Below, piece by piece: positions 5,351 through 33,528 of a stretch of 38,558 nt of DNA (position 1 is its first letter; every line of letters starts with the position of its first letter). A program made the position numbers and the translations under genes. The notes under the pieces are model-generated. The model was given only the letters and a program-made list of their open reading frames with translations. It was not told the origin of the DNA and made no database searches. Source of the DNA: Nitrospirota bacterium (GTDB lineage Bacteria; Nitrospirota; Thermodesulfovibrionia; Thermodesulfovibrionales; JdFR-88); contig JAKAKS010000011.1 in NCBI GenBank assembly GCA_021813405.1, forward strand, positions 1-38,558, in the 5' to 3' direction.

Positions 5351-5407
5351 ACAGAGCGGCAGTGCGACAGTATAAACAAGGATAATACTATCGCTCTGCC
5401 GCGCTGT
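5351..5407. repeat. Imperfect 24-bp inverted repeat downstream of the peroxiredoxin gene
   Basis: Arm 5351-5374 matches the reverse complement of 5384-5407 at about 20 of 24 positions (both arms read ACAGnGCGGCAGnGCGAnAG), separated by 9 bases. A further partial GCGGCAGTAC copy lies just to the left (about 5340-5349). It lies between two same-strand genes and could act as a transcription terminator or mRNA-stabilising hairpin for the peroxiredoxin, or be a small palindromic repeat element. No T-run follows in the minus direction. Confidence 0.55.
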
Positions 5408-5412
5408 AGTTG

Positions 5413-6018
5413 CTATTTGAATGCTTCTTCCGCGCGGCCCACGGCCTCCGGCCTGGGCGACATGGTTTTTTCTCCGGGCTCCCACTTGGCCGGACAAACC
5501 TCTTCAGGATGCCCGAGCTTGTAAATATTGGCCTCGAGCTTTCTTAAAATCTCGGTGGAATTTCTGCCTACGTCTATATGGTTTACCTCGGAGCCAACCA
5601 GCACCCCGTCCGGGGTTATTATGAACGTGCCGCGGCCGGCAAGCCCGCTGTTTTCGTCATAAACGCCAAACATGCGGGAGACCTTGCCGGAGGGGTCCGC
5701 CCCCATAGGGTATCTTACGTTTTTCAGCATGTTTTCTTCCCTTTGCCACGCCAGGTGCACGAATTTGGTGTCCGTGCTTACAGTGACAATCTCCGCCCCC
5801 GCCTTCCTGAAATTTTCGTACTGGCCTGCCAGGTCAGCAAATTCGGTTGCTCAGACGAATGTGAAATCCGCCGGATAGAAAAACAGGACGGTCCATTTGC
5901 GCTTCCCTTTAAGTTCCTCCAGCGATATCTCGCCAAAACCTCCTGCATCCGGCTCGAATGTCTCCAGCTTGAAATCGGGCACGCTCTGGCCCACGCATAT
6001 TGAACAGCAGCCTTGCAT
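5413..6018 (-). CDS. prxU: Selenocysteine-containing 2-Cys-type peroxiredoxin (AhpC/Prx family)
   Basis: The reading frame is a complete 201-residue peroxiredoxin if the in-frame TGA at 5853-5851 is read as selenocysteine (residue 56). The context is FYPADFTFV-TGA-ATEFAD: family members carry the peroxidatic Cys exactly here (FTFVCPTE). Homology continues without a frame change on both sides: a thioredoxin-fold start (VPDFKLETF) before it, and VSTDTKFVHLAWQ, YPMGADPSGKVSRMFGVYDE and the resolving EVCPAKWEPGE (Cys175) after it. A stem-loop directly after the TGA fits a bacterial SECIS. The ATG at 6018 has AAGGAGG upstream. The enzyme would reduce peroxides in the cytoplasm. The N-terminus MQGCCSIC adds three unusual cysteines. 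A point mutation or sequencing error changing TGC/TGT to TGA is the alternative. No sel genes are in the window. Confidence 0.82.
5821..5837 (-). promoter_or_regulatory. Candidate bacterial SECIS stem-loop
   Basis: Starting 13 nt after the TGA, the mRNA reads CUGACC-UGGCA-GGCCAG: a six-pair stem with one A/C mismatch and a five-base apical loop. The loop begins about 20 nt after the UGA and has G in its first two bases, as described for bacterial SECIS elements recognised by SelB. It lies inside the coding sequence, as required. Confidence 0.55.
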
Positions 6019-6139
6019 GTTGTCCTCCTTTTTTCCGGCCTGTTTTGAAAATGTTAGTGGATAATGCCCGCGCGTGCAATATATTGAAAAGAAGGGCAAC
6101 ATCTGAAACCCGGGAGGAAGCGGCGGTGCGGGCCTGGCT

Positions 6140-8651: not shown

Positions 8652-9329
8652 CTACCCTCTCACCGCCTTCGCATCCAGCACAACGGCCCTGTCGTGAAAA
8701 AGCGAAACCGGATTAAGCGTAATCTCGGTAAATAGTCCGGTTGCGATTATCTGTGAGGCCGTCACAATCGCCTTTGAAAGCGCAGCTTCGCTTACGGGCG
8801 GTTTGCCTCTGATCCCTCTGAGCGCGTCTGCCGCTTTAATGCTGTAGGCCAGTTTCAAAGCGCCGGCCTCATCAACCGGGGCGGGGGCGAAGGCAACATC
8901 TTTTGCAAGTTCTATAAAGAACCCGCCAAGCCCGAACATCGCAACCGGGCCAAACTGCGGGTCTATTATCCCGCCGATTGCGGCCTCTATACCGCCCTGG
9001 AGCATCTCTTCCACCAGAACACCCTCAGTCCCTTTTACATCTGTAAGGCGGTGTACCGCGGAGTTCAGTTGTTCCAGATTTCCGATGCACGTAACTATCG
9101 CGCCAGCTTCCGTTTTAGAACGGACGTCCCGTGATATAGCCTTTACCACCATGGGGAAACGGAGGCTTATCGACCTTATAACCAGCTTTTTCTTTCCCTT
9201 TATAAAAATGCCTTTGGGTACGTTAAGCCCCAATCCTTCAAGAAACGGTTTCAGTTCGTGCTCCAGGAAAATTTTTTTGCCTGGGGCAAATGACAAAAGA
9301 GTTTCCAGTTCATTTCTAACTTCAGCCAA
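8652..9329 (-). CDS. acdB: ADP-forming acetyl-CoA synthetase, beta (ATP-grasp) subunit
   Basis: A 225-residue ATP-grasp subunit. It shows LKPFLEGLGLNVPKGIFIKG, then RFPMVVKAISRDVRSKTEAGAI (nucleotide-binding strand and the K-x-E loop), EGVLVEEMLQGGIEAAIGGI, DPQFGPVAMFGLGGFFIEL and the terminal FTEITLNPVSLFHDRAVVLDAK. This is the beta-subunit layout of the NDP-forming acyl-CoA synthetase family. The reaction is acetyl-CoA + ADP + Pi to acetate + CoA + ATP. The TTG start at 9329 overlaps the alpha-subunit stop by 8 bp and has GGGGGTG upstream, implying coupled translation. It is the last gene of the five-gene operon; the substrate could also be another acyl-CoA. Confidence 0.85.
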   Translation of the reverse strand: MAEVRNELETLLSFAPGKKIFLEHELKPFLEGLGLNVPKGIFIKGKKKLVIRSISLRFPMVVKAISRDVRSKTEAGAIVTCIGNLEQLNSAVHRLTDVKGTEGVLVEEMLQGGIEAAIGGIIDPQFGPVAMFGLGGFFIELAKDVAFAPAPVDEAGALKLAYSIKAADALRGIRGKPPVSEAALSKAIVTASQIIATGLFTEITLNPVSLFHDRAVVLDAKAVRG

Positions 9330-10665
9330 GCAGCACCCCCAAAACCTTCGCGGCCCGTTCCGGAGTGGAAAAGACTGGTATGCCCGCGGCCTCGGCCCCG
9401 GCCGCAATTGTTCCGGCAACCGGGTCCGTCCCGATGTGCAGCACCACGGGTTTTACGGTGTGCAAACTGAACGCGGCCAGTATGCCCGCCAGCCCTTCCG
9501 TTACCCCGCGCACCGCCGAAAGGGCAATGATCAAAAACCCGTCGTAATGCGGGTGCAATTCATCCAGAACAATGCCGTAGTCTTCATCCCGAACCTGCGC
9601 GGTAAGGTCAAACGGGTTTCCAAACCCGTAAAAATCCGGCAGTTTTTCCCTTAACAGCCGTTCGCTTTCCGCCGGTAGCGGCGGCAGTTCGATGCCGCGC
9701 CTGGCGAACTCATCGGCGGCAAGCACGCCCGCGCCGCCGCCGTTTGTAAGCACAAGGATTTTCCGCCCGGCGGCTTTAAGGGGATTGGCCTTTGAAACAG
9801 ACAGCCCCCTGGCCCCATCCGCAAGCTCCTCAAGGTCCATTGCCTCCGTTATGCCAAACTGCCTTAAAACAGATGAGAACACCCCGTAACTGCCCGCCAG
9901 CCGCCCGGTGTGCGAGAATGCGGCGCTTTGCCCTGCATGGCCTTTGCCAGCTTTCAGAACAAGAAGCGGCTTCCCTTCAGCCGCAAGTTTTCCGGCGCTT
10001 TCAAGAAACCTCCTGCCGTCCCTTATGGACTCCAGGTAGGAGATAACGGCCTTGGTGTTTTTATCGCCGGCAAAATATGAATAGAAATCGCACTCGTCAA
10101 GGCCTGCGGCGTTGCCGTAGTGGGCCGCTGCGGATATGCCCGTGCCGGAAGCGTGAAAATATTCAAAAATAAGACTGAGGACGGCGCCGCTTTGTGTGGT
10201 AAAGCCGATGTTGCCCCTTTTTGGCCTTGGCACCCTGTCTGACGGGAGTATGAATGTGTCCAGGCCGCTTCCCGTGTTGTATATGCCCATGCAGTTTGGG
10301 CCAAGTATCTGAATTCCGGCTGAGGCGGCCGTTTTTTTGACCTCCTGCTGCAAATCGTCATGGCCCGCTTCGGAAAACCCGGCGCTTACGATTATTGCGA
10401 AACGGGTTTTGCCTTTCAGTTCCTTAAGTATCCCGGAGACCTCCGGGGCGGGTCTTATTATAATCGCCAGGTCCGCCCCCGGCAGCGCGGAAATTTCCCT
10501 GAGTGCGGGCACACCCATCAGGCTGTCATATACGGGGTTGACCGGGTATATCTTCAGGTCCCTTTTGCCAAGAAGGTTTTTCAGGACAACGCCTCCCAGC
10601 TTGTCTTCGGAGTGGGAAGCCCCTACAAGGCAGACGCTTCTGGGGGCAAAAAGGTTATCAAGCAC
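9322..10665 (-). CDS. acdA: ADP-forming acetyl-CoA synthetase, alpha (CoA-binding/ligase) subunit
   Basis: About 447 residues. The N-terminal CoA-binding domain starts LDNLFAPRSVCLVGASH and contains IYPVNPVYDSLMGVPAL. Two flavodoxin-like ligase domains follow: GNIGFTTQSGAVLSLIFEYF and, near residue 245, AAFSHTGRLAGSYGVF, in which the His is the residue phosphorylated in this family. The third part has KILVLTNGGGAGVLAADEFA and GNPFDLTAQVRDEDYGIVLD. It pairs with acdB to make ATP from acetyl-CoA. The start is uncertain: GTG 10665 best matches the family; TTG 10671 and 10695 are in frame. The start overlaps the pdhC stop by 8 bp. Encoding directly behind pdhC suggests its substrate is the acetyl-CoA made by that complex. 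Confidence 0.87.
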   Translation of the reverse strand: MLDNLFAPRSVCLVGASHSEDKLGGVVLKNLLGKRDLKIYPVNPVYDSLMGVPALREISALPGADLAIIIRPAPEVSGILKELKGKTRFAIIVSAGFSEAGHDDLQQEVKKTAASAGIQILGPNCMGIYNTGSGLDTFILPSDRVPRPKRGNIGFTTQSGAVLSLIFEYFHASGTGISAAAHYGNAAGLDECDFYSYFAGDKNTKAVISYLESIRDGRRFLESAGKLAAEGKPLLVLKAGKGHAGQSAAFSHTGRLAGSYGVFSSVLRQFGITEAMDLEELADGARGLSVSKANPLKAAGRKILVLTNGGGAGVLAADEFARRGIELPPLPAESERLLREKLPDFYGFGNPFDLTAQVRDEDYGIVLDELHPHYDGFLIIALSAVRGVTEGLAGILAAFSLHTVKPVVLHIGTDPVAGTIAAGAEAAGIPVFSTPERAAKVLGVLLG

Positions 10666-11908
10666 TTTCAATGAATATGAGGGCCGGGTCCTCAAGTAAC
10701 TGGACCACCCTGGTAAGGAACTGGGCAGCCTCGGCCCCGTCCGTGACGCGGTGGTCGAAGGTGAGAGAGAGGTGCAGTATCTTTCTTATCTCTATTTTGT
10801 TCCTGTATACCCACGGCTTTTCGGCTATGCGCCCCGTGCCCAGTATGGCCGTATCCGGCGCGTTTATTATCGGGGTTGCAAAGAACCCGCCGAAGTGGCC
10901 GTAATTGGTTATGGTGAAGCTGTTGCCTTTAAGGTCTTCCAGCGCAATTTTCCTGTCTCTTGCCTTGCCGGAGAGGGCCTCTATCTCCCTGGAAAGCTCC
11001 AGGACCGTTTTCTTGTCCACGTCCTTTAGCACAGGGACCATCAACCCCTCGGGCGTGGCCACGGCGATGCCGAAATTGTAGTAGTTCTTAAGCACAATCT
11101 CTTCTTTCTGGTCATCCAGGGCGGCGTTGAGGGCCGGGAACTCCCTTAAAGCGTGCTGGGCCGCCTTAATAAAAAATGGCAGAAATGTGAGGTGCAGGCC
11201 GGCTTTTTTGAGCGCGCCTTTTTCCCTTTCCCTCAGCTCCCACAGGTCTGTTACGTCCGCTTCTTCCATACCGGTGACAAAGGCAGTTGCCCTCTGGGCC
11301 GCAACCATATTTTTTGAAATGGTCCTTCTCAAGCCCCTGAGCGGCACGCGCTTTACCGGGCCGAAGCCGTCCTCATCAGCCTTAGAGGTTTTTTCCCTTG
11401 AATGCCGGAGTACGTCCTCTCTGGTTATCGCCCCGCCTGGGCCGGAGCCTTTTATTTTTCTTAAATCCGCAAAGCCCATATCCTTTGCAAGCGCCCTTGC
11501 GGCTGGCAGGGCAAGCACGGACTCCTCCTCGCCAGCCTCCGGCAGGGTGCCCATAACGGTAACTGATTCGCGCTCTTTTTCCTCAGGCTTTGTTTGAGGT
11601 GCTTCAGGTTGCTCAGGCTTTGCCGTTTCAGCCTCGGGCATTCCGGCGGGTTTATCTGCCGCCTTTGCCTCCACGGTCTCAATCACCAGCAGGGTTTCCC
11701 CGACGCGGGCGATCTCCCCTTCTTCCTTGCCCAGTTTCAAAACCCTGCCCGCCTTGGGCGACGGGACCTCGGCCACCGCCTTGTCAGTCTCCACTTCAAG
11801 CACGCTCTGGTGCTCCGCTACAACATCGCCTTCCTTTACAAGCCACTTCCTTATCTCGGCTTCCGTTATGCCTTCGCCAATGTCCGGCAGCCTGAATTCG
11901 TATGGCAT
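10658..11908 (-). CDS. pdhC: 2-oxoacid dehydrogenase E2, dihydrolipoamide acyltransferase
   Basis: A 416-residue E2 with the classic layout. The lipoyl domain (1-80) has VETDKAVAEVPSP with the lipoylated Lys43. An acidic Pro/Glu/Ala-rich linker follows (to about 130). The peripheral subunit-binding domain is LPAARALAKDMGFADLRKIK plus GSGPGGAITREDVL. The catalytic domain ends with SLTFDHRVTDGAEAAQFL, in which His386 and Asp390 are the catalytic pair. It transfers the acyl group from E1 to CoA and forms the core of the complex. The ATG at 11908 overlaps the pdhB stop (TGATG). Pyruvate is the likeliest substrate, given the adjacent acetyl-CoA synthetase; branched-chain 2-oxoacids cannot be excluded. 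Confidence 0.92.
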   Translation of the reverse strand: MPYEFRLPDIGEGITEAEIRKWLVKEGDVVAEHQSVLEVETDKAVAEVPSPKAGRVLKLGKEEGEIARVGETLLVIETVEAKAADKPAGMPEAETAKPEQPEAPQTKPEEKERESVTVMGTLPEAGEEESVLALPAARALAKDMGFADLRKIKGSGPGGAITREDVLRHSREKTSKADEDGFGPVKRVPLRGLRRTISKNMVAAQRATAFVTGMEEADVTDLWELREREKGALKKAGLHLTFLPFFIKAAQHALREFPALNAALDDQKEEIVLKNYYNFGIAVATPEGLMVPVLKDVDKKTVLELSREIEALSGKARDRKIALEDLKGNSFTITNYGHFGGFFATPIINAPDTAILGTGRIAEKPWVYRNKIEIRKILHLSLTFDHRVTDGAEAAQFLTRVVQLLEDPALIFIESA

Positions 11909-12876
11909 CAGTACTTTAGCACCTCCTCTATGGCGTCCGTGATCCTGCGCTGGTTAGGGATATAAAAATCTTCCAGTTTGGGAAACGGCAGCACAACGTC
12001 ATACCCGGCCACCCTTGTTACCGGGGCCCTCAGGGACAGTATCGCCTTCTCCGCAATGCATGCGGCCACCTCGGAGGCAAAACCGCAGTTTCTTGGAGCC
12101 TCCTGAATAATGACCGCCCGCCCCGTCTTCTTTACGGAGGCCAGCACCGCATCTTCGTCATAGGGGCTTAAAGTCATAAGGTCTATCACATCAACATCAT
12201 AGGCCCCGGCGGCTTTCAGGGTTTTCTGGAGCATGCTGCCCCATGAAATCAGCGTGGCGTCCCTGCCTTCCTTTAAAAGCCTGGCTTTGCCAAGCGGAAT
12301 GGTAAAGGGTTCTTCCGGGACTTCCTCTTTAATGAGCCGGTAAAGCCTTGTTGGTTCCAGAAACAGGACCGGGTCCGGGTCCCGGATGGCGGCCGCCAGA
12401 AGCCCTTTTGCAGTATAGGGCGATGACGGCACGACTACCTTGAGCCCCGGAATATGGCAAAAGGCGGCCTCGGCGCTTTCGGAGTGCAGTTCAATGGCCT
12501 TGATGCCCCCGCCATAAGGCGTCCTTACAACCATCGGGCACCCGTATCTGCCCCTGCTTCTGGCGCGTATCCGCGAGGCGTTGGATATAAGCTGGTCAAA
12601 GGCCGGATAAAGAAAACCCATGAACTGTATCTCGGCAACAGGCACAAGCCCGAAGGCGGACATGCCTATGGCCATGCCTACAATGCCGGATTCCGCAAGC
12701 GGCATGTCCATGACCCGCTCCGGGCCGAACATGCCGTAAAGGCCCGCGGAAACCCGGAACACCCCTCCGTCCACCCCAACGTCTTCACCCATTATTACTA
12801 CGTTGGAGTCCCTCGCCATCTCCCCCGCAAGGGCCATATTCAGGGCCTCAACCATGTTTACCATTTTACTTGCCAC
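11908..12876 (-). CDS. pdhB: 2-oxoacid (pyruvate) dehydrogenase E1, beta subunit
   Basis: A 322-residue transketolase-type E1 beta subunit. Visible motifs are VEALNMALAGEMARD, VVIMGEDVGVDGGVFRVSAG (with the Glu that activates thiamine diphosphate), FGPERVMDMPLAESGIVGMA and the arginine-rich loop ISNASRIRARSRGRYGCPMV. The C-terminal domain has DVDVIDLMTLSPYDEDAVL. It forms an alpha2beta2 E1 with pdhA and decarboxylates the 2-oxoacid. The GTG at 12876 overlaps the pdhA stop by 11 bp and has GGGG about 9 nt upstream; an ATG at 12864 is an alternative. The length is normal for the family. Confidence 0.92.
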   Translation of the reverse strand: MASKMVNMVEALNMALAGEMARDSNVVIMGEDVGVDGGVFRVSAGLYGMFGPERVMDMPLAESGIVGMAIGMSAFGLVPVAEIQFMGFLYPAFDQLISNASRIRARSRGRYGCPMVVRTPYGGGIKAIELHSESAEAAFCHIPGLKVVVPSSPYTAKGLLAAAIRDPDPVLFLEPTRLYRLIKEEVPEEPFTIPLGKARLLKEGRDATLISWGSMLQKTLKAAGAYDVDVIDLMTLSPYDEDAVLASVKKTGRAVIIQEAPRNCGFASEVAACIAEKAILSLRAPVTRVAGYDVVLPFPKLEDFYIPNQRRITDAIEEVLKY

Positions 12877-13933
12877 CGGAAAAACCCCTCAACTGTGCCA
12901 TCTGCCCCGCCGCAGGCGTTTTAAAGGTGTTCAGGAACATGTCTTCCGGTGAAGGGGGGCCGGCCTCCTCGTATTTTCTGAACCCTTCGTCAACCGCAGC
13001 TGTTGCCTGGCGGGCGGCTTCCTCCGCGTAGCCGGATGGCATCATGCCTTCTTTTTCCATGAATTTGCCCAGGCGCGCCAGCGGGTCCAGTTTCTTCCAG
13101 TGTTCCACCTCCTCGGCGCTTCTGTACCGGGAAGCGTTATCCGCGGTGGTATGGTCTGATAACCTGTATGTGAAGCACTCGATTAATGACGGGCCTTTGC
13201 CGTCACGCGCTTTGTCCAGCGCCCTTTTTACGGCGGTATAGACGGCGAAAACATCGTTTCCATCCACCTGGATGCCTTCGAATCCGTAAGCTATTGCCTT
13301 CTGCGCCAGTGTGGCGGCAGCGCTCTGCCTGGAACGCGGCAAGGATATGGCCCACTGGTTATTCTGGCAGATAAGCACCACGGGCAGGTTGAATGCCCCG
13401 GCCATGTTTGCGCCCTCGTGGAAGTCCCCTTTTGAAGTGGCCCCGTCGCCAAAGTACGCGACGGACGGCAGTTTTTCTTTTTTTATCCGGGCCGCCATCG
13501 CCGCGCCAACTGCGTGCGGCACATGTGAGCCAACCGATATGCAGACCGGAAATATGTTCATCCCGTCTGGCACCCGCATGCCTCTTTCGTCTCCGCTCCA
13601 GTACTGAAATAGCATGTAAAGCGGATATCCAAGCGCTATCAGCGCGCCCGTCTCCCTGTAAGACGGGAACACCCGCGCGTTGTTTCCGGCGGCATAGGCG
13701 CTTGCCACCTGCGACGCCTCCTGCCCCAGGATGGATGCATATGTGCCCATCCTGCCTTCCCTCTGAAGCGCCAGCACCCGCTGGTCAAAAGCCCGGGCAA
13801 GGACAAGGCGATGATAGATATCTTTTATTTCCGGCTCTCCAAGAGACGGCATGAGGGCGCGGTCTGAATTGCCATGGCTGTCCAGTATGTCCAGCCGCTT
13901 TACCTCGAATGTGCCTGCGGTGTACTCGGGCAT
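12866..13933 (-). CDS. pdhA: 2-oxoacid (pyruvate) dehydrogenase E1, alpha subunit
   Basis: A 355-residue E1 alpha subunit. The thiamine-diphosphate motif GDGATSKGDFHEGANMAG, followed closely by ICQNNQWAIS, is clear. It also has RVFPSYRETGALIALGYPLY, SVGSHVPHAVGAAMAARIKK and the phosphorylation-loop-like TYRLSDHTTADNASRYRS. It is the first gene of the operon pdhA-pdhB-pdhC-acdA-acdB, in which each gene overlaps the next. The ATG at 13933 opens a short N-terminal tail typical of the subunit. A promoter-like pair lies about 58-84 bp upstream. The matching E3 is probably the flavoprotein at the left edge of the window. Confidence 0.92.
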   Translation of the reverse strand: MPEYTAGTFEVKRLDILDSHGNSDRALMPSLGEPEIKDIYHRLVLARAFDQRVLALQREGRMGTYASILGQEASQVASAYAAGNNARVFPSYRETGALIALGYPLYMLFQYWSGDERGMRVPDGMNIFPVCISVGSHVPHAVGAAMAARIKKEKLPSVAYFGDGATSKGDFHEGANMAGAFNLPVVLICQNNQWAISLPRSRQSAAATLAQKAIAYGFEGIQVDGNDVFAVYTAVKRALDKARDGKGPSLIECFTYRLSDHTTADNASRYRSAEEVEHWKKLDPLARLGKFMEKEGMMPSGYAEEAARQATAAVDEGFRKYEEAGPPSPEDMFLNTFKTPAAGQMAQLRGFSGGK

Positions 13934-23021: not shown

Positions 23022-24815
23022 ATGCGGATTGAAACGCGGCGCAAGACGGTTTACGCACTGGTACTGGTCCTTTTAGCCGCCCTGGTTTATATAAACTCCC
23101 TCGGGAACGGGTTTGTATATGACGACCCCAACCAGCTTGTTAAAAATCCCTGGATAAGAGATTTCAGAAACATCCCTGCCGTCCTTACCCATGAGGTGTG
23201 GGGCTTCCAGCCCGCCGTAAAGTCCAGCTTTTACAGGCCTACGATGCACCTTCTTAATATGCTTATATATCCTTTTTCCGGACTGAACCCGCTGGGCTAT
23301 CATATTGCCAACCTGCTGCTGCACTCGGCAAACAGCCTGCTTGTTTTCCTGCTGGCCATGGCTCTGTTCGAAGATATTGTTGCCGCGCTTGCAGCCGGGG
23401 TGCTGTTTGCCGTGCATCCTGTGCATACGGAGGCGGTGGACTGGATTGGCGGCTCCCCGGACCTGATGCTTGTCTTTTTTTCTCTTGTGGCCATGCTGCT
23501 GTTTGCGGCAAGGAAAAACCCTGTGCTGCAGGGCGTTTTTTTTCTTCTGGCCATGCTGAGCAAGGAACCCGCCGTTACACTGGTTTTTATACTGCCTGTT
23601 TTTGCATGCGCGCTTGATGCAGGTGATGCCGGGCCGGTTTTAAAAGCACGAAACGCACCGCCGTGGTATTTCCGGTTTCTGCCGGTTGTTGCCGCCGCCC
23701 TGGTTTATTTTGCAATGCGGATATACGCGCTGGGCGGTTTGACCACCGGCAACAATCATCCGGAGATGGGCCTTCTTTTTGAGGCGGCAAACGCGCCGTA
23801 TCTTTTTGCCAGATATATGGCCAAGCTTGTTTTGCCGCTGAACCTGAACCTTGCCTACAATTTCCATCCGGTGCGCTCTATGCTTTCCCCGCGCGCCATT
23901 GCGGGGTTTTTGGCCGCCTTTGCGTTTGCCGGGCTTCTTGCGATTTCATTCAGGAAAAACAGGAAGGTGTTTTTTGCGTTATGTCTGTTAGCGGTGCCGG
24001 TTCTGCCGGCGCTTTATTTTGCGCCGCTTGGGGACCTGGTGTTCGGGGAAAGATACCTGTATCTGCCCTCGGTGGGCTTTGCATTGGCGGCAGGATGGGC
24101 GTTTGAATATTTCCATAAAAAGGCAAAACACGTTTCCGTTGCCGCAGGGATTATGGTTGCGGCGATTTTTGCGTTTGGCACCATGCACAGGGCGCCTGTG
24201 TGGAAGAGCAATTTCTCTCTGTGGAGCGATGCAGTGAAAAAGTCCCCCACGGGGTACGTGCCGCTGGTGAACCTGGGGGTGGAGTACGGGAATATGGGAG
24301 ATTCGGGCCAGGCCATAGCGCTGTTTGAAAAGGCAGCATCCATCAACCCGGCCCGCTATGAGGCTTACCTGCTGGAAGGGCAGACTTACCAGATGATTAA
24401 AAAATATACCCTTGCCGGGAAAGCTTACCAAATGGCATTGAAGGCCGACCCCAGGCATTCGGAAACCTATCTGCGGCTTGCCATGATGTACCGCGCGGCC
24501 GGGGAGCCTGAGAAGGCCATACAGACATACCTGGCGCTGGTTTCGGTATATCCGGATTCCATGGCGGCATACACGGGCCTGGGGCAACTCTATTTTTCCG
24601 CCCGGGATTATAAAAACGCAGCGGAAGCCCTCGCGAACATTGCCAGGCTGGCCCCAGGCAGCCCCGATGCGCATTATAACCTGGCGCAGGCGCTCCGGCT
24701 GGAAGGGGACATGAAATCCGCTGCGCAGCAGTACCAGGCGGCCATCAGGCTGGATCCCGGTTTCACAAAGGCGTATGCCGGGCTTGGTGAAGCTATGCGC
24801 GGCGGCGGGAAATAA
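23022..24815 (+). CDS. TMTC-like membrane glycosyltransferase with C-terminal TPRs, copy 1 (597 aa)
   Basis: Residues 1-400 form a multispan membrane region of about ten helices. The first outside loop has GNGFVYDDPNQLV with Asp34-Asp35, the acidic pair expected in GT-C glycosyltransferases. Next come SSFYRPTMHLLNMLIYPFSG, HPVHTEAVDWIGGSPDLM, MLSKEPAVTLVF and FGERYLYLPSVGFALAAG, and then the APVWKSNFSLWSDAV entry into the soluble part. Residues from about 405 to the end are five TPR units. This architecture matches eukaryotic TMTC proteins (O-mannosyltransferases) and bacterial relatives of unproven function. The likely role is transfer of a lipid-linked sugar to exported acceptors, with the TPRs binding a partner. 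It is the first of seven consecutive large membrane-protein genes. Confidence 0.8.
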   Translation: MRIETRRKTVYALVLVLLAALVYINSLGNGFVYDDPNQLVKNPWIRDFRNIPAVLTHEVWGFQPAVKSSFYRPTMHLLNMLIYPFSGLNPLGYHIANLLLHSANSLLVFLLAMALFEDIVAALAAGVLFAVHPVHTEAVDWIGGSPDLMLVFFSLVAMLLFAARKNPVLQGVFFLLAMLSKEPAVTLVFILPVFACALDAGDAGPVLKARNAPPWYFRFLPVVAAALVYFAMRIYALGGLTTGNNHPEMGLLFEAANAPYLFARYMAKLVLPLNLNLAYNFHPVRSMLSPRAIAGFLAAFAFAGLLAISFRKNRKVFFALCLLAVPVLPALYFAPLGDLVFGERYLYLPSVGFALAAGWAFEYFHKKAKHVSVAAGIMVAAIFAFGTMHRAPVWKSNFSLWSDAVKKSPTGYVPLVNLGVEYGNMGDSGQAIALFEKAASINPARYEAYLLEGQTYQMIKKYTLAGKAYQMALKADPRHSETYLRLAMMYRAAGEPEKAIQTYLALVSVYPDSMAAYTGLGQLYFSARDYKNAAEALANIARLAPGSPDAHYNLAQALRLEGDMKSAAQQYQAAIRLDPGFTKAYAGLGEAMRGGGK

Positions 24816-24827
24816 AGGCAAGTGAGT

Positions 24828-24833
24828 TATAAT
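24828..24833 (+). promoter_or_regulatory. TATAAT box 5 nt before the second TMTC-like gene
   Basis: A perfect TATAAT, then TTTTT, then the ATG at 24839. The spacing is the same 5 nt as at 23011-23016. No Shine-Dalgarno sequence. It lies in the 23-bp gap after copy 1. Confidence 0.5.
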
Positions 24834-24838
24834 TTTTT

Positions 24839-26602
24839 ATGCTGACCGGCAAAAGATCACGGGAAGCCATATACGCCCTGCTTGTGGGCCTTCTGGCAGC
24901 CTCTGTTTATCTGAACTCGCTTGGCAACGGGTTTGTTTATGACGACTTTGCCCAGATTGTGCAGAACCAGTGGCTTGGGGATTTCAGGAACATTCCCGCT
25001 TTTTTCAGGACCGAGGTGTGGGGTTTCCATCCCGGCCTGATGTCCAATTATTACAGACCTGTTATGCACCTGCTTAATATGGTAGCGTACCATCTGTTTG
25101 GCCCCGGCCCGATGGGCTTTCATATGGCAAACCTGCTTTTGCATTCGGCCAATTCCGCGCTTGTTTTCCTGCTGGCACTTTTCATCTTCGGGGAGGCGGG
25201 CCTTAACCCACGGTTTTCGGGGGACCCGGTGACAGCCGCGCTTGCCGCCGGGATTATCTTTGCCGTCCATCCGGCCCATACGGAGGCGGTGGACTGGATT
25301 GGCGGCTCACCGGACCTGCTGATGGCTTTTTTCTCGCTCTGCGCGCTTGTTTTCCTTGTAAAAAGAAAATCGCCCTGGCTTCAGGGGTTATTTTTCCTGC
25401 TTGCAATGCTGAGCAAGGAACCGGCGGTGATGCTCCTGATTGCGGTGCCCTTATTCGATATCATTTCAGGCAGGGGGCAGCATTCCGCAAAGGCCGCCCC
25501 GCTTTGGAAAAGATATGCGCCGCTGGCTGTTGCCATTATCATCTATTTTGGCCTGCGGATTAATGCGCTTGGGGGCCTTGTGGCCTTTAAGGAGCCAAAC
25601 CCGCCGGTAGGGGGCCTGCTTCCGGCTGCGCTTTCAGCGCCGTTTCTTTTTGCAAGGTACATGGCAAAGATGCTGCTGCCGGCAGGGCTGAACGTGGCCT
25701 ATGATTTCCATCCGGTGCTCTCTTTTTCCGACCCAAGGGCGATTGAAGGGTGTGCCGCTATCCTGATATTTGCCGCAATTCTGGTCTTTTCGGCTTATAA
25801 GGACAAACGGATATTCTTCGGGCTTTGCCTTCTTGTTTTGCCCCTGCTGCCAGTATTTTATTTCCCGGCGCTGGGCAGGGTTGCCTTCGGTGAGCGGTAT
25901 CTCTATTTCCCGCTTGCCGGGTTTTCGCTGGCGGCTGGCGGGCTGTTTGCCGCCGCTGCCTCAAACAGCAAGGCAAAAAATACCGTGCTGACAGCCGGCG
26001 TTCTGGTTGCAGCGCTCCTTTCAATTGCCACTGTTTACAGGAACCCGGTATGGAAGAGCGACCTTACTCTCTGGGGTGATGCGGCAATGAAATCCCCTGG
26101 CGGTTACGTGCCGCTTGTAAACCTGGGGGTGGCAGAGTATAAGGCGGGCAATATACAGAAGGCGATAACGCTTTACCAGAAAGCGGCCATGCTGGACCCT
26201 TCGGACTATGAGGCCTTCTTTTACCTTGGCAAGGCGTATCTTGCCGCAAAAGAAAACGTGTTTGCCGAGGGATCATTCCTTCAGGCAACCAGGGCCAACC
26301 CCCGGTTTGCAGAAAGCTATTATTATCTGGGGGTCACATTCTGGGAAGAAGGGGAGCCGGGGCTAGCCAAGGAGGCCTATAAGGCGGCAATAGCAAGGGA
26401 CCCGCTTTATCATGAGGCGTACAACAACCTGGGGGGCATATATTTTGCCGAAGGGAGTTACTTAAAAGCGGCCGGGGCGTACAGGATGGCGCTTCAGCCC
26501 GGCCCGGAAGAGGCCGCCGTACGGTTCAACCTGGCCCTTGCGCTTAAGAAGGCCCGGGAGAAAAAAAAGGCCGGGACATTCCCTGATGCGGATAAAAACT
26601 AA
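24839..26602 (+). CDS. TMTC-like membrane glycosyltransferase with C-terminal TPRs, copy 2 (587 aa)
   Basis: A clear tandem paralogue of copy 1. It keeps GNGFVYDDFAQIV with Asp35-Asp36, the NYYRPVMHLLNMVAYHLFG loop, HPAHTEAVDWIGGSPDLL, MLSKEPAVMLLI, FGERYLYFPLAGFSLAAG and NPVWKSDLTLWGDAAMKSPG. About ten membrane helices are followed by four or five TPRs (EAYNNLGGIYFAEGSYLKAA is one unit) and a short Lys-rich tail. The DNA of the HTEAVDWIGGS segment is identical to copy 1 over about 32 bases, pointing to recent duplication or gene conversion. The start at 24839 follows a TATAAT box by 5 nt. The gene end overlaps copy 3 by 17 bp. Confidence 0.8.
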   Translation: MLTGKRSREAIYALLVGLLAASVYLNSLGNGFVYDDFAQIVQNQWLGDFRNIPAFFRTEVWGFHPGLMSNYYRPVMHLLNMVAYHLFGPGPMGFHMANLLLHSANSALVFLLALFIFGEAGLNPRFSGDPVTAALAAGIIFAVHPAHTEAVDWIGGSPDLLMAFFSLCALVFLVKRKSPWLQGLFFLLAMLSKEPAVMLLIAVPLFDIISGRGQHSAKAAPLWKRYAPLAVAIIIYFGLRINALGGLVAFKEPNPPVGGLLPAALSAPFLFARYMAKMLLPAGLNVAYDFHPVLSFSDPRAIEGCAAILIFAAILVFSAYKDKRIFFGLCLLVLPLLPVFYFPALGRVAFGERYLYFPLAGFSLAAGGLFAAAASNSKAKNTVLTAGVLVAALLSIATVYRNPVWKSDLTLWGDAAMKSPGGYVPLVNLGVAEYKAGNIQKAITLYQKAAMLDPSDYEAFFYLGKAYLAAKENVFAEGSFLQATRANPRFAESYYYLGVTFWEEGEPGLAKEAYKAAIARDPLYHEAYNNLGGIYFAEGSYLKAAGAYRMALQPGPEEAAVRFNLALALKKAREKKKAGTFPDADKN

Positions 26603-28391
26603 GGGCGGCGCCACCGGCGCATTCAATCCGGTTTACGCCTTGGCTATATTTATTTTTGCTTTTATTCTTTATTCCAATTCCATCAACAACTGCTTTGTCC
26701 GTGACGACTCCGCTCAGATTTTAAATAACCCCTGGATAAAGAGTTTTTCCCATGCCGGGCGGGTTTTTCTGTCCAACGTGTGGGCCTTTACCGGAAGGCC
26801 ATCCAATTATTACCGTCCTCTCATGTATTTTGGCTATATGATCGTATACAGCCTCTTCGGGCTGGATGCGCGTGGGTACCATCTGCTGAGCGTGCTCCTG
26901 CATTCCATAAATTCCGTTCTGGTTTATGCCGCCGCCTGCCTGGTGATTAGAAGATATAACGACGGCGGGCCAGTTCCCTCATCCGGGCCTATGGGAACTG
27001 GTTTCCCGGGGGCTGGCCCCATTGCGGCAGGGCTTGTGTTTGCCGCGCAGCCGGTGCATGTGGAGGCCGTTGCCTGGGCGGGGGGCTACCCGGACCTGCT
27101 GGCCGCCATGTTTTCGCTTGCGGCCTTCCTGGTGTTTGCCGCCTATTCCGGCAGAGGATATCTGAAATATTTTGCGCTGGAAATGGTCCTTCTGCTTGGG
27201 GCATTTTTCAGCAAGGAGCCCGCGGTTACAATCCCGTTTGTTTTCGTGGCTTACGACCTGCTTTTAAGCGGCAGGGGAAGGGGATTTGTTGCAAGGTACG
27301 CGCCTCTTTTTTGCGCCCTTGCCATTTATATGGGTATGCGCACTTACGCCATATTCTACGGGCCCGCAGGGTGGCTTACGGCCAATTTCCGGGCAGAGGT
27401 GGCCGGGCACCTTGGTATAGCTGGAATTAATTATCATCCGGAGATTGGGCCGGTAACAGCTTTTCTGACCGGCGTCAGTTTTTTTGCCGGGTATCTTTAT
27501 AAGATGCTTGTGCCCATCCGCCTGAATCCGGCCTACGGTTATCAGCCTGTCAGTTCCGTGAATGCGGCGTTCGTGGTCCCCGTATTGGCCGCTGCGCTTT
27601 TTGCCTTTTTGCTTTACGTTTCATTCCGGCGGGACAGGAGGTATTTTTTTGCCGGGCTTTTCTTCTTATTGCCGCTTGCTCCGTCTTTATACATATCGCA
27701 CGGGCTTGGGCAGTTCCTGTTTGCGGAGAGGTATCTTTACCTGCCGTCCATAGGCTTTGCGCTTGCCGCGGGGCTTGTTCTGGACGGGGTTTGTAACGGC
27801 GGAAGCGGCGTCCTGAAAAAGGTTGTTCCAGGATTGTTTGCTGTATTGCTGGTCTTTTACACGGCATCGAGTTTTGAGAGAAATCACGTATGGAAGGACG
27901 ATTTTTCGGTATGGTCCGACGCGGCGCTTAAAACCCCGGATAACGGTTTTGTGCAATACAACTACGGAGTGGAATTGGAGCACAAGGGGTTGCTGGACGG
28001 GGCCATAGCAGCGTTCCGCAAGGCCGTTGCGCTTCAGCCGGATTACATGAAGGCTTATTCCGAGCTGGGCGGCACTTTGATGAAAAAAGGCGAAAACGAG
28101 GCCGCGGTGCAGGTATTCCAGACTGCGCTCTCCATAAACGATGCATCTCCCGATACGCCCGGCATCCATTACCGGCTTGCCAGGGCATACCTGGCGCTTG
28201 GGAACCCGGATGCCGCTATAGGGGAATACAGGGCCGTCCTTGCCGTAATGCCAAACGCCGGTATAGCCAGGGAACTTGCAGGCCTTCTTTACCGCACAGG
28301 AAGCCCCTCCGCGGCTGAAGATATGTTTAAGAAGGCCCAGATGATGGACCCCGCACATGCCGGCCCCACTGGCTGCGGGGATTTCAAGTAG
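26586..28391 (+). CDS. TMTC-like membrane glycosyltransferase with C-terminal TPRs, copy 3 (601 aa)
   Basis: The ATG at 26586 gives MRIKTKGG, similar to the MRIETRRK start of copy 1; an upstream in-frame start lies inside copy 2. Features: Asp40-Asp41 in FVRDDSAQIL, SNYYRPLMYFGYMIVYSLFG, QPVHVEAVAWAGGYPDLLAA (the usual HPxHTE is altered to QPVHVE), FFSKEPAVTIPFVF, FAERYLYLPSIGFALAAG and NHVWKDDFSVWSDAALKTPD. About ten membrane helices precede four TPRs. A Gly/Pro-rich insert (GGPVPSSGPMGTGFPGAGP) lies in a loop and is absent from copies 1 and 2. It overlaps copy 2 by 17 bp and is probably translated from the same message. Confidence 0.8.
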   Translation: MRIKTKGGATGAFNPVYALAIFIFAFILYSNSINNCFVRDDSAQILNNPWIKSFSHAGRVFLSNVWAFTGRPSNYYRPLMYFGYMIVYSLFGLDARGYHLLSVLLHSINSVLVYAAACLVIRRYNDGGPVPSSGPMGTGFPGAGPIAAGLVFAAQPVHVEAVAWAGGYPDLLAAMFSLAAFLVFAAYSGRGYLKYFALEMVLLLGAFFSKEPAVTIPFVFVAYDLLLSGRGRGFVARYAPLFCALAIYMGMRTYAIFYGPAGWLTANFRAEVAGHLGIAGINYHPEIGPVTAFLTGVSFFAGYLYKMLVPIRLNPAYGYQPVSSVNAAFVVPVLAAALFAFLLYVSFRRDRRYFFAGLFFLLPLAPSLYISHGLGQFLFAERYLYLPSIGFALAAGLVLDGVCNGGSGVLKKVVPGLFAVLLVFYTASSFERNHVWKDDFSVWSDAALKTPDNGFVQYNYGVELEHKGLLDGAIAAFRKAVALQPDYMKAYSELGGTLMKKGENEAAVQVFQTALSINDASPDTPGIHYRLARAYLALGNPDAAIGEYRAVLAVMPNAGIARELAGLLYRTGSPSAAEDMFKKAQMMDPAHAGPTGCGDFK

Positions 28392-28541
28392 AGCTTCCGG
28401 GGCGTGTTCGCCGGGTGTTGGCGATGATAGCAATCAGCTTTTTCGCATTGCTGACTGGCAGGCACAAGTCGGTTAAAAAACGGAAGCCCGGCCCTTCGCG
28501 CTTGGCGGGCCTTCAGGAACATATTTTATAATATCCGGCAT
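28392..28541. other. Short gap before the duplicated membrane-protein pair
   Basis: No gene. It holds a weak GCCCG/CGGGC hairpin (about 28488-28510) and a TATAAT box (28527-28532) that ends 9 nt before the next ATG, without a Shine-Dalgarno sequence. Confidence 0.5.
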
Positions 28542-30188
28542 ATGGGGACTTTTAAAAAACTGCTGGTTGCCGCGCTTATTCTGGCCGTTGCCTTTGGGCT
28601 GTGGACAAGCTTTCATTACACCTTTAAGGCTTATGTATTAGAAGGCGATTCAGCCGTTTTTCCGATGCTCTGGCGCGGGTTGCAGGAGCACGGCTTCGCT
28701 TTTTTTAGGACATGGCATTTTACGCAGGACAACTGGCTGCTTTCCCCCGCTCCTTTTGTATTTCTTGTCTACTATATTTTTGGCGTTACCGGATACACAG
28801 TGCTGGGTTTGGGATGGGCGTTCTTCGTGATCAACGCCGTATTGCTTGCCGTTTTAACGAGGTTCCTGGCTGGCAGATGGTCCATGGCCGCGCTTGTAAT
28901 ATTGTGCCTGGGGTTGTTTGCAAGCGAGAAGGCGGTGGAAAACGGATTTTTATCCTACATTATTTGCCACAACACGTCGATGGCGTGGGCTTTCGTTGCT
29001 GTAATGGCTGCGGCTTACGGAATGGAAAAACGCAGCGGTCTGTCCGCGTTCGCGCTGGCCTGCATAATTTTTATCGCAGGCGTTTCGGACCCATGGTTTC
29101 ACGCGGCCTGCACATTGCCGCTTTTGTTTGTACTGTGCTTAATATATCTGAGGGGCAAGGAACACCGCAGACAGTCACTAATCATGTTGCTGGGGGTGGC
29201 GGGCGGATGGGCGCTTGCTTATACAAGAGGCCTGGGGCTGCTGTCTTTCCTTCCAAGGGGCGGTTTTCAATTCATATCCACATGGGAACAACTGCGGTCC
29301 AATGCCCACCAGCTTTTACAGGCAACCGGCACGTTCTTCTCATTGTCCGAAGTGTTTGAATGGAACCACATGGCGGGAGCTGTTTTCATTGCAATCAGTA
29401 TCTGCATCGCCTTTGAAACTTTCCGCTGGGCTGTGCGGAATATGAAAAGACTGCCTGTGCGCCAGGCTGTGGCTGCCGGGTTTTTCCCGGCGTCGGTTGT
29501 CATGATGTCCGCAGCTTATCTGGCTTATGATTTGCATGAAAATAATTTCATATACAGATATTTGATAAATATTTACTACGGCCTGATTGCCTTTGCGGCT
29601 TTTGCGATGGCATGGCGCTGGAAGCAGCTGCCGGACCTTTTCCGCGCGATGGCGTGCGCCTGGGTGGTTATCTTCCTGGCGGCCGGGGTGGCAAGCGATC
29701 CGGCGGCCTGGGAAAAGGATATCAACGTAAATGATCAGGGGGCGTCGGCGCTGGCGGGTTTTCTGGAACAAAACGGGCTGAATTACGGGTATGCGGATTA
29801 CTGGGCGGTCCCGGCCGATACGATAACCTGGGCCAGCGGCTACCGGGAGATCGTGCGCCCCATAGGCATGAAATTCGACCTCTCAGCGCGCCCGGAACCA
29901 CGCCTGTTCTTTGTCCCATGGCCGTACGAGACTTCCAGTACGTGGTACAAACCTGGGGATTATAAGGACCAGCGCAGGTTTTTTCTGGTGCTGAATGCCG
30001 CCTGGCCGGGCCATGCATTAAACAAGGTAAGCACCGTCCCCCGTTTTGATTTCTATACCATGGTATCGGCTGCGGAAAGGCAGTTTGGCACCCCGGAGAA
30101 AACCCTTCAGTTTGCGAACTGCGTGGTCCTGGTGTGGGACCATCCCGTCTTGCAGGCCCTGACCGGGGCGGAAACGCCCGGGCAATAA
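28542..30188 (+). CDS. Polytopic membrane protein, putative GT-C glycosyltransferase, pair member 1 (548 aa)
   Basis: A hydrophobic protein with about eleven membrane helices and a soluble C-terminal part from about residue 400. After the first helix comes YVLEGDSAVFPMLWRG; the acidic Glu-Gly-Asp sits where GT-C enzymes keep their catalytic Asp. HFTQDNWLLSPAPFVFLVYY, GVSDPWFHAACTLPLLFVLC and LAYTRGLGLLSFLPRGG follow. The C-terminal domain contains FLEQNGLNYGYADYWAVPAD and SGYREIVRPIG, phrases that recur in bacterial GT39-like membrane proteins. No TPRs. It is about 50-60% identical by eye to the next gene. The precise family is unknown to me; a role in transferring lipid-linked sugars is inferred from fold and context. 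Confidence 0.7.
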   Translation: MGTFKKLLVAALILAVAFGLWTSFHYTFKAYVLEGDSAVFPMLWRGLQEHGFAFFRTWHFTQDNWLLSPAPFVFLVYYIFGVTGYTVLGLGWAFFVINAVLLAVLTRFLAGRWSMAALVILCLGLFASEKAVENGFLSYIICHNTSMAWAFVAVMAAAYGMEKRSGLSAFALACIIFIAGVSDPWFHAACTLPLLFVLCLIYLRGKEHRRQSLIMLLGVAGGWALAYTRGLGLLSFLPRGGFQFISTWEQLRSNAHQLLQATGTFFSLSEVFEWNHMAGAVFIAISICIAFETFRWAVRNMKRLPVRQAVAAGFFPASVVMMSAAYLAYDLHENNFIYRYLINIYYGLIAFAAFAMAWRWKQLPDLFRAMACAWVVIFLAAGVASDPAAWEKDINVNDQGASALAGFLEQNGLNYGYADYWAVPADTITWASGYREIVRPIGMKFDLSARPEPRLFFVPWPYETSSTWYKPGDYKDQRRFFLVLNAAWPGHALNKVSTVPRFDFYTMVSAAERQFGTPEKTLQFANCVVLVWDHPVLQALTGAETPGQ

Positions 30189-30196
30189 GCAAAAAG

Positions 30197-31837
30197 ATGA
30201 GAGCTTTAAAACAACTTCTGACAGTAACGCTTCTTCTGGCCGTTTGCGCCGGGCTATGGATAAGTTTCCATTACACCTTCGCGGCTTACTCGCTGGACGG
30301 CGACACGGCAGTTTTCCCGATGCTATGGCATGGCTGGAGGGAGCACGGCTTCGCTTTTTTCAGGACATGGCGTTTCACCCAGGACAATTGGCTGCTTTCT
30401 CCCGCTCCTTTTGTATTTTTTATCTACTATATTTTTGGCGTTACCGGATACACAGTGCTGGGTTTGGGATGGGTGTTCTTCGTGATCAATGCAGTATTGC
30501 TTGCCGTTTTAATCAGGTTTTTGTCCGGCAGATGGTCCGCGGCATCGCTTGTTGCCCTGTGCCTGGGGTTGTTTGCAAGCCAAAGCGCGATAAAGGACGG
30601 ATATCTGGCCTATGTCGTTTGCCATAACTCTTCGATGGCCTGGGCGTTTATTGCGTTCATTTCCGCGGCTTACGCGATAGAGAAGCACAACAAGATAAAT
30701 GCTTTTACATTGGGCGCGATAGTATTTCTGGCCGGCGTTTCGGACCCCTGGTTTAACGCGGCCTGCACATTGCCCATTGTAATGGTTCTGCTGGCGCTCT
30801 GCATAAAAAAACGGCAATACCGCCGGCCGGCGCTGAACCTGCTTCTGGGGACGATGACCGGATGGGCGCTTGCCTATACAAGGGGGCTGGGGCTGTTGTC
30901 TTTTTCCCCAAAAAACAGTTTTCATCTTATATCCTCCTGGGGCCAGTTTATGGCCAATGCCCATACATACCTGGCGGCACTTGGAGTGTTCTTTCCGGTT
31001 TTGCGGACATGGGCGTGGAACCACATGGCGGGGGCGGTCTTTGCCATTATCAGCCTTTTCCTGGCTTTCCATCTGGTCCGCCATCTGGCGGGGCATGCAA
31101 TAACGCTGAGTGCCAGGCAGGCGATGATTACCGGTTTTTTCCTGGTTTCAATTCTTGTCATGTCTGCCGCTTTTTTGATTTTGGCCGTGGACAGAGGCGA
31201 TTACAGGTATCTGGTAAACATTTACTATGGTCTGCTTGCTCTCGGGGTATTTATATTTGCCTGGCAATGGAGGGCCATGCCTGTCTTTTCCCGATGGGCT
31301 GTATGCCTTTGGGTATTTATCTTTATTGCGGCGGGCGCGGCAAGCGGTCCGGCGGCCTGGGAAAACCGGGTGGAAATAAACGATAACGGGGCGCTTGCGC
31401 TGGCGGGGTTTCTGGAACAAAACGACCTCCATTACGGGTACGGGGATTACTGGGCGGCCCCTGCAAACACCATAAGCTGGATAAGCGGGTACAGGGTTGT
31501 TGTGCGCCCCGTAAGCCTGGAATATGACCCGGGGGCAAACCCCGCAATGCCTTTGTTTTTCATGCCCAGGCGGCATGAAATATCCGCTGCGTGGTTTGGG
31601 CCTGGGAACTCCGCTAACCAGCGGCGGTTTTTCCTGATACTTGGCATGAACGGCCGGCCTTTTGAGGTGGTAAGCAAGGAGAACGTGATAGGCCAGTTCA
31701 ATTATTACAGCTTGCTGGCATTAGCTGAAGAACAGTTTGGCAGGCCGGATGAAACCCTTGCGTTTGAAAACCATATTATCCTGGTGTGGGACCATCCCAT
31801 TGTGCAGGCCCTGCCGCAGGCTGCCAGTGCCGGGTGA
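30197..31837 (+). CDS. Polytopic membrane protein, putative GT-C glycosyltransferase, pair member 2 (546 aa)
   Basis: A tandem duplicate of the preceding gene. The ATG at 30197 lines up with its start (MRALKQLLTVTLLLAVCAGL), 8 bp after the upstream stop; a longer frame runs back into that gene. It has YSLDGDTAVFPMLWHGWREH (Asp-Gly-Asp in the first loop), RFTQDNWLLSPAPFVFFIYY, GVSDPWFNAACTLPIVMVLL and LAYTRGLGLLSFSPKNSFH, then the C-terminal FLEQNDLHYGYGDYWAAPAN and VWDHPIVQALP. A 50-bp DNA block (30424-30473) is identical to the first copy, while most of the rest differs. It ends with a TGATG overlap into the next gene. Confidence 0.7.
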   Translation: MRALKQLLTVTLLLAVCAGLWISFHYTFAAYSLDGDTAVFPMLWHGWREHGFAFFRTWRFTQDNWLLSPAPFVFFIYYIFGVTGYTVLGLGWVFFVINAVLLAVLIRFLSGRWSAASLVALCLGLFASQSAIKDGYLAYVVCHNSSMAWAFIAFISAAYAIEKHNKINAFTLGAIVFLAGVSDPWFNAACTLPIVMVLLALCIKKRQYRRPALNLLLGTMTGWALAYTRGLGLLSFSPKNSFHLISSWGQFMANAHTYLAALGVFFPVLRTWAWNHMAGAVFAIISLFLAFHLVRHLAGHAITLSARQAMITGFFLVSILVMSAAFLILAVDRGDYRYLVNIYYGLLALGVFIFAWQWRAMPVFSRWAVCLWVFIFIAAGAASGPAAWENRVEINDNGALALAGFLEQNDLHYGYGDYWAAPANTISWISGYRVVVRPVSLEYDPGANPAMPLFFMPRRHEISAAWFGPGNSANQRRFFLILGMNGRPFEVVSKENVIGQFNYYSLLALAEEQFGRPDETLAFENHIILVWDHPIVQALPQAASAG

Positions 31838-33519
31838 TGGATGCGAAAAGAAAAATGAATACCATGCCTGTTTCCTCCAGAAAATGGATTTTTATTATCA
31901 TGTTTGCGATTGCCCAGGCGGTAATTGCTGCATGGCCCTTATTTCATAGCGGATGGGTGGCCACCTGGGACGGGTACATGCATATCCAGAGAGCGCAAGC
32001 CGTGTCCTATGCGGTAAAACACGGCGATTTTTATCCCCGCTGGACAACAGCAGCAGCCGCAGGCAAAGGGTCGCCATTTCTTAATTTCTACTCCCCGGGG
32101 TTTTACCTGGCGGCGGGCTATCTGCACGCCCTGGGAATCCAGCTTGTCCCGGCTGTGAAAATTGTATGCATGCTCATGCTTTTTGCCGGCTGGCTGGGGA
32201 TGTTCCTGTGGGCCAAAGGGCATTTCGATATACCCGGGGCGCTTATTGCCGCCACGGTATTCATGTTTGTCCCGTATCATTTCCACGATTTATATCAACG
32301 CGGGTCTTTGCCGGAACTTGCCGCAATAAACCTTATGCCATTTCTGTTTTACGGCATTGATCTTATGTGCGCTCAAACAATCCAGTATATGCCCGGCATA
32401 ATTGTGACTGCCCTGGCAACGGCCTTGATAACGTTAACGCATAACCTGATGGGGTTCATGATCGCGCCTTTTGCTGCTCTGTATATAGGGTGGCTGGCAT
32501 TTTCTTCCGGAACTCCGGTAAAAATATTCATCAGGTCCGCCGTTGGTGTGGCCCTTGGCATGGGGTTGTCCGCTTTTTATTGGCTGCCGGTGCTCACAGA
32601 AATAGGCTACCTGGCCAGATTCAAGGAAGCTACCCTGGATGGTTATCCGTATTACAAGCTTTTCATGTCCGCCGCCGGATGGTTTAAAGCCGGATGGACT
32701 CAGCCCCCTAAAGATTTGTTTGATGACCTTCAGATCGGATACGCGGTTCTGGGGTTTGATGCCTTGGCGCTTGCGGGCCTGTTTGCTGTGCCGCGGCAGA
32801 AAAGGGGATTTGGCCTGATCGTACCCTTGCTGGGGGTTCTTGCCCTTTTCATGACGATACCGCTTTCAGCGGCTTTATACAAATACTTAACCCCGCTCCA
32901 GTATGTGTTGTTCCCGTGGAGCTATATGGGCATAGCAACACTGTTTTTTTCCGCGCTGGCAGGGTATTCCGCAAGCGTGATACCGGCAGGCAGGATGATG
33001 TTTTTGCCGGCTGCGCTTGTCTGCCTTGCGCTTGCGCTTTGCGTGTTTGTTTCCAGCCCGCAAAGAACTGCGTATGGAAGGCTGGCAATAAAAGACGACA
33101 TCCCCAATATCATGGGGATAGCGCCAGCAGACGAATTCCGGCCCAGGTGGGAGACCGTGCCTGTAACTGCAAAACGATACGATTTTCTTTACACCACCGG
33201 CTCCAGTACCAAGATTAAGGAGGCTAGCGCAAACGGCACTGAGATCCGTGTGCTTGCAGATGCCGCCGGGCCGGCCAACCTGATAATCACGCAATTCTAC
33301 TTCCCCGGCTGGAGGCTCCGGATAGACGGCCGCGGCTTGCCTGTTTCCACCACGCCGGAGGGGTTTATCACATTTGCCATACCACCCGGCCTGCACTCTA
33401 TAACGCTTTGGTTTGGCACTACGTGGCCAAGGGTTACGGGATGGGTGATATCGGCTGTTGCGGTGCTGGCTATTCTAGCGGGCACGTTAAAAAAAGCCGG
33501 GCGGTTAAAGGCCTGTTGA
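31837..33519 (+). CDS. Polytopic membrane protein, YfhO/PTPS-related GT-C-like (560 aa)
   Basis: The start at 31837 overlaps the upstream stop (TGATG). About ten membrane helices. The first loop has GWVATWDGYMHIQRAQAVSY, in which Trp-Asp-Gly-x-x-H is the acidic first-loop motif of this GT-C branch. It continues with GDFYPRWTTAAAAGKGSPFL, NFYSPGFYLAAGYL and PYHFHDLYQRGSLPELAAIN, all recognisable in bacterial 6-pyruvoyl-tetrahydropterin-synthase-related membrane proteins. The C-terminal 150 residues form a beta-rich outside domain (ITQFYFPGWRLRIDGRGLPV, FITFAIPPGLHSITLWF), as in YfhO-like proteins, followed by a last membrane helix. Bacterial relatives are thought to glycosylate lipoteichoic acid or other envelope polymers. 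Confidence 0.72.
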   Translation: MDAKRKMNTMPVSSRKWIFIIMFAIAQAVIAAWPLFHSGWVATWDGYMHIQRAQAVSYAVKHGDFYPRWTTAAAAGKGSPFLNFYSPGFYLAAGYLHALGIQLVPAVKIVCMLMLFAGWLGMFLWAKGHFDIPGALIAATVFMFVPYHFHDLYQRGSLPELAAINLMPFLFYGIDLMCAQTIQYMPGIIVTALATALITLTHNLMGFMIAPFAALYIGWLAFSSGTPVKIFIRSAVGVALGMGLSAFYWLPVLTEIGYLARFKEATLDGYPYYKLFMSAAGWFKAGWTQPPKDLFDDLQIGYAVLGFDALALAGLFAVPRQKRGFGLIVPLLGVLALFMTIPLSAALYKYLTPLQYVLFPWSYMGIATLFFSALAGYSASVIPAGRMMFLPAALVCLALALCVFVSSPQRTAYGRLAIKDDIPNIMGIAPADEFRPRWETVPVTAKRYDFLYTTGSSTKIKEASANGTEIRVLADAAGPANLIITQFYFPGWRLRIDGRGLPVSTTPEGFITFAIPPGLHSITLWFGTTWPRVTGWVISAVAVLAILAGTLKKAGRLKAC

Positions 33520-33528
33520 AAAAACATT

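Follow-up and report, generated by a model that had tools for sequence, protein, structure and literature searches.

Selenocysteine (Sec) forms of peroxiredoxins (Prx) have been on record since 2001-2006 (PMC9312934, PMC13188914, PMC1794560). Reviews list a selenoprotein family 'Peroxiredoxin (Prx), TxxU' together with other AhpC-TSA selenoproteins that carry different motifs (PMC9312934, PMC13188914), and a survey of 2006, where the motif is given as T/SxxU/C, found 12 Sec-Prx, for which it listed five changes from Cys to Sec and none from Sec to Cys (PMC1794560). The 'Prx, TxxU' grouping does not split proteins of the AhpC type (TIGR03137; Salmonella/E. coli) from those of the PrxU type (NF040737), and we found no NCBIfam model, nor any paper in the open-licence literature, that separates an AhpC-type Sec subfamily. 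The window analysed here, a stretch of 38,558 nucleotides from a Nitrospirota bacterium, contains a gene whose product fits the TxxU family by its motif; it appears to be a real selenoprotein, which this broad family already covers at the level of the motif. The features of the locus are the following.

6023..6030, minus strand: ribosome-binding site AAGGAGGA, strong, ahead of the ATG (from the sequence)
5413..6018, minus strand: predicted Sec-AhpC gene for a 201-aa peroxiredoxin of AhpC (typical 2-Cys) type, one UGA in frame (from frame, homology and model)
6018-6016, minus strand: start codon ATG (from the sequence)
5995..6009, minus strand: N-terminal cysteine cluster CCSIC at residues 4-8 (its CC pair is found again in other clade members)
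5851..5853, minus strand: UGA codon 56 at the peroxidatic position, FTFV-U-ATE, predicted Sec (kept in 69 distinct relatives)
5819..5839, minus strand: predicted bacterial SECIS hairpin in the reading frame, stem +15..+23 / +27..+35, apical GGC (from conservation and compensatory changes)
5494..5496, minus strand: Cys175 codon, presumed resolving cysteine, VCPAKW (Cys at +119 from Sec in most Sec forms)
5415-5413, minus strand: stop codon TAG (from the sequence)

In the frame 6018-5413, the TGA at codon 56 is the sole stop before the TAG, and 201 aa are obtained if it is read through. Matches to PF00578 AhpC-TSA (E 4e-37) and to the C-terminal 1-cysPrx_C domain span both sides of the TGA, AhpC crystal structures match residues 13-195 (E 6e-49), and an AlphaFold model from window and locus proteins (pLDDT 93) gave Salmonella AhpC as the top PDB match (TM 0.87-0.94). 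The TGA aligns exactly with the peroxidatic cysteine of the Cys homologues, FTFVC-PTE in AhpC corresponding to FTFV-U-ATE in the window protein. An earlier note, drawn from the DNA letters alone, had described a full-length minus-strand peroxiredoxin with one TGA at this very position, probably a selenoprotein, which gene callers would split; each of these points held, and the standard genetic code indeed yields two fragments, 5851-6102 and 5413-5760. Its observation that residue 57 is Ala instead of Pro extends to the whole group, since all 69 distinct Sec forms of this AhpC type read UATE. The three extra N-terminal cysteines that it had pointed out are also present (the protein has cysteines at 4, 5, 8 and 175), C4-C5 belonging to a CC motif that is common in the clade, while C8 looks specific to the genus. 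The peroxidatic-site and resolving set consists of P49, T53, U56, R129 and C175, in which the typical 2-Cys pattern P-x(3)-T-x(2)-C/U is found, and the equivalents of Pro49, Thr53, U/C56, Arg129 and Cys175 are invariant across the alignment. Directly after the stop codon lies an imperfect 23-bp inverted repeat (5351-5407; arms 5407-5385 and 5373-5351) that makes a strong hairpin with no T run. It is possibly a terminator; its assignment as a dispersed element was rejected, the repeat being single-copy in the genome.

The homologue sample comprised 80 homologous loci and 50 from genomes of the Nitrospirota phylum. The TGA was kept, with an intact downstream frame, in 69 distinct relatives of 55-99% identity, and this conservation excludes a chance in-frame TGA. 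By their record titles, the Sec forms include Nitrospirae, Desulfobulbaceae, other Deltaproteobacteria, Methylomirabilis, Rokubacteria, Planctomycetota and Krumholzibacteriota, and the nearest relatives are Nitrospirae MAGs. Cys forms were distributed between CPTE (35), CATE (9) and CSTE (1). A Cys at +119 from Sec was present in 70/73 Sec forms; the C-terminal resolving cysteine is replaced by I or V in three (L048, L086 and L091); of these, L086 and L091 carry a Cys 58 positions after Sec. The N-terminal CC pair was found in 44/73 Sec forms versus 4/32 Cys-Pro forms, and may possibly represent a second thiol relay.

To place the protein, a tree was computed after masking of sites 56-57. A single clade (SH-aLRT 99) united the Sec-Ala sequences with the nine Cys-Ala sequences and the one Cys-Ser sequence, and this Sec/CATE/CSTE clade arises among Cys-Pro AhpC proteins. 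While no Sec-to-Cys event was reported for Prx in the 2006 survey (PMC1794560), the present tree has nine Cys-Ala forms nested among the Sec forms. These CATE forms (L107, L141, L143, L145, L146, L148, L150, L090 and L092) have no SECIS hairpin and are apparent Sec-to-Cys reversions, several of them in genomes that still have SelA. The simplest reading of the sequences would be one gain of Sec together with Ala, followed by several returns to Cys in which the Ala stayed and the hairpin was lost, the exact number of reversions not being forced by the starred branches of the tree. The window protein scored 201 bits, below the TIGR03137 AhpC equivalog cut-off (272 bits). Since its Cys relatives also miss this cut-off (212 and 225 bits), we consider the group as a sister group and not as strict TIGR03137 AhpC. 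It is like AhpC in its fold, in the catalytic P-T-C/U-R set and in the C-terminal resolving Cys in VCPAKW, but differs by the predicted peroxidatic Sec, by UATE in place of CPTE, by the SECIS inside the coding sequence and by the N-terminal CC motif.

The earlier note had compared the protein with PrxU. Membership in the PrxU family of selenoperoxiredoxins, as known from Eubacterium acidaminophilum, has in its favour the same AhpC-TSA fold with Sec at the same peroxidatic TxxU site, and NF040737 is the second-best NCBIfam match. However, the window protein reached 179 bits where the cut-off is 270 bits, a value that the PrxU paralogues of the phylum pass with 416 and 366 bits, it stands in the tree outside the PrxU clade (support 99), and it retains C175, whereas these paralogues have no Cys at +119. 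PrxU identity was rejected on these three grounds, and we hold it to be very unlikely; the comparison did not stand. The phylum also contains seven PrxU selenoprotein genes with an in-frame TGA (L132-L138, from G075, G047, G164, G178, G084, G015 and G126). The residue after Sec in these seven is Ala in 5/7 and Pro in 2/7, so that some PrxU proteins of the phylum, too, combine Sec with loss of the otherwise common +1 proline, and the sequence past their TGA shows no such SECIS stem at the same place. Sequence comparison thus places the window protein next to AhpC, as a close sister, and not with PrxU; it appears to be a typical 2-Cys AhpC in selenocysteine form, with UATE as its signature.

We then looked at how the UGA could be decoded. 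The predicted hairpin begins 11-13 nt downstream of the TGA, the earlier note having given 13 nt. With the U of UGA numbered +1, the scored 8-bp stem pairs +16 to +23 with +27 to +34. It was paired at >=7/8 positions in 69/69 distinct Sec forms (97.8% of pairs, a percentage that is partly by construction, the stem having been picked from Sec forms), and was absent from the Cys-Pro and Cys-Ala forms, with 0/35 CPTE forms (47% of pairs) and 0/9 CATE forms (44%). Because of this choice of the stem, the evidence for a SECIS is the contrast with the Cys forms together with the compensatory changes. Three pairs vary on both sides, giving 23 compensatory cells versus 6.5 after shuffling, with 0/500 shuffles as high, and shifting the stem partner by 1-3 columns destroys the pairing. 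Moreover, synonymous codons are frozen after the TGA in Sec forms (Leu CTG in 69/69, the next Ala GCA in 68/69), while the Leu and Ala codons at those two sites vary freely in Cys forms. In the window hairpin, pair +20/+30 is an A-C mismatch, common to the window's family f1 relatives, and the hairpin folded alone has an unremarkable energy (z = -0.23). Its identity as a SECIS is therefore supported by conservation and not by single-sequence energy.

The genome of the window (2.9 Mb, 56 contigs, 100% complete) was searched for selA, selB, selD and tRNA-Sec, as the earlier note had suggested, and all four were found: SelA, SelB (356 bits, well above its cut-off), a tRNA-Sec with UCA anticodon, and SelD, itself a selenoprotein gene, its catalytic CAGU motif containing the U. 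The same genome also has an FdhA gene (formate dehydrogenase alpha subunit) with an in-frame TGA. Formate dehydrogenase-like genes with in-frame TGA lie at G000:C33:29009-31012 and C38:44358-45131, the latter on the same contig as the tRNA-Sec. Among 296 genomes of the phylum, SelA was found in 53/55 with the TGA form versus 16/29 that have the Cys form (Fisher P 7e-6, uncorrected for phylogeny), and one of the 2/55 TGA-form genomes lacking SelA is 65% complete. These results bear on another decoding of the UGA, either a genome-wide reassignment to Trp or Gly or an unprogrammed read-through with another residue, which would equally account for a frame that is open once the UGA is translated. 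Yet the Cys homologues have Cys at the aligned residue, the Sec machinery is complete and accompanied by two further in-frame-TGA genes of known Sec families, and the hairpin is confined to TGA forms, making such a decoding highly improbable. Judged from the sequence, it is almost certain that the mid-gene UGA directs selenocysteine into the catalytic position.

Could the gene instead be a pseudogene, a former Cys codon having become a genuine stop that truncates the enzyme at residue 55? The two fragments obtained with the standard code are what this would give. Against it, the TGA recurs in 69 distinct relatives with the downstream frame intact and the catalytic and resolving residues invariant, the synonymous codons past the TGA are frozen, and a decayed downstream half in near relatives was seen at none of the homologous loci examined. 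Cross-species conservation refutes the pseudogene, which we regard as extremely improbable. A sequencing error in one assembly is a vanishingly small concern: although the TGA is one base from TGC/TGT, it is also found in a near-identical gene (99%) of a second genome of the genus (L022/L103) and in dozens of assemblies.

We are highly confident that the gene encodes a Sec-containing, typical 2-Cys-type AhpC whose UGA would be decoded via SelB and the hairpin, and whose Sec56 would act as the peroxidase residue resolved by C175. From the anatomy and conservation of the locus, SelB carrying Sec-tRNA(UCA) would bind the hairpin 11-13 nt past the UGA, leading to Sec insertion. By analogy with AhpC chemistry, P49, T53 and R129 would activate the Sec56 selenolate, which would reduce H2O2 or organic peroxides and be converted to a selenenic acid; a selenenylsulfide would then form between Sec56 and C175 of the partner subunit, to be reduced by an AhpF-like or thioredoxin system. 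The reductant, oligomer and substrate are likewise inferred by analogy.

The window neighbours, a DUF1844 gene, an unassigned 117-aa frame and a Glu/Leu dehydrogenase on the other strand, include no redox partner, and a local operon was rejected on this basis. Elsewhere in the genome, an AhpF-like reductase is found at C12:17138-18712 (312 bits, under the family cut-off of 503) as well as two TrxR-like genes, and in a homology search the Sec-AhpC was the single AhpC/Prx1-class match. In more distant relatives, the gene is directly preceded by a Fur-family regulator in six loci and directly followed by a CMD (AhpD-like) gene in six loci, and a cytochrome bd oxidase lies nearby in eight loci, a neighbourhood that supports a probable role in peroxide and oxygen defence. 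In three loci (L023, L025 and L026), the Sec-AhpC gene is followed at a short distance by that of an ABC-type transporter ATPase, and L023 and L026 also have a YeeE/YedE (Sulf_transp) gene; a sulfur or selenium link is possible for this neighbourhood. Further along the window, a CoA-ligase/ATP-grasp pair in two overlapping frames (8652-10695) adjoins a pyruvate dehydrogenase E1/E2 cluster (10658-13933), and tandem large TPR-repeat and membrane-type proteins of about 540-620 aa, several of them with no Pfam match, occupy 23022-35157.

Altogether, we think it rather probable that these genes form an unnamed selenoperoxiredoxin subfamily, Sec-AhpC, marked by UATE and by a SECIS that hardly varies, which arose once from Cys-Pro AhpC, is present in several phyla and reverted repeatedly to CATE with loss of the hairpin. 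The coupling between Sec and loss of the +1 proline would then reflect a true constraint, set either by Sec chemistry or by the decoding of UGA. Standard gene callers are expected to cut the Sec-AhpC genes of dozens of relatives, from several phyla, in two. A peroxide-defence enzyme class of Nitrospirota and other uncultured phyla is probably lost or split by standard annotation, and for this reason such organisms look poorer in peroxide defence than is really the case. A signature model combining TFVUATE with CUCUGGCAGAG would permit correct annotation, and the UATE/CATE/CPTE series, with and without SECIS, constitutes a natural experiment on Sec-Cys exchange and proline loss.
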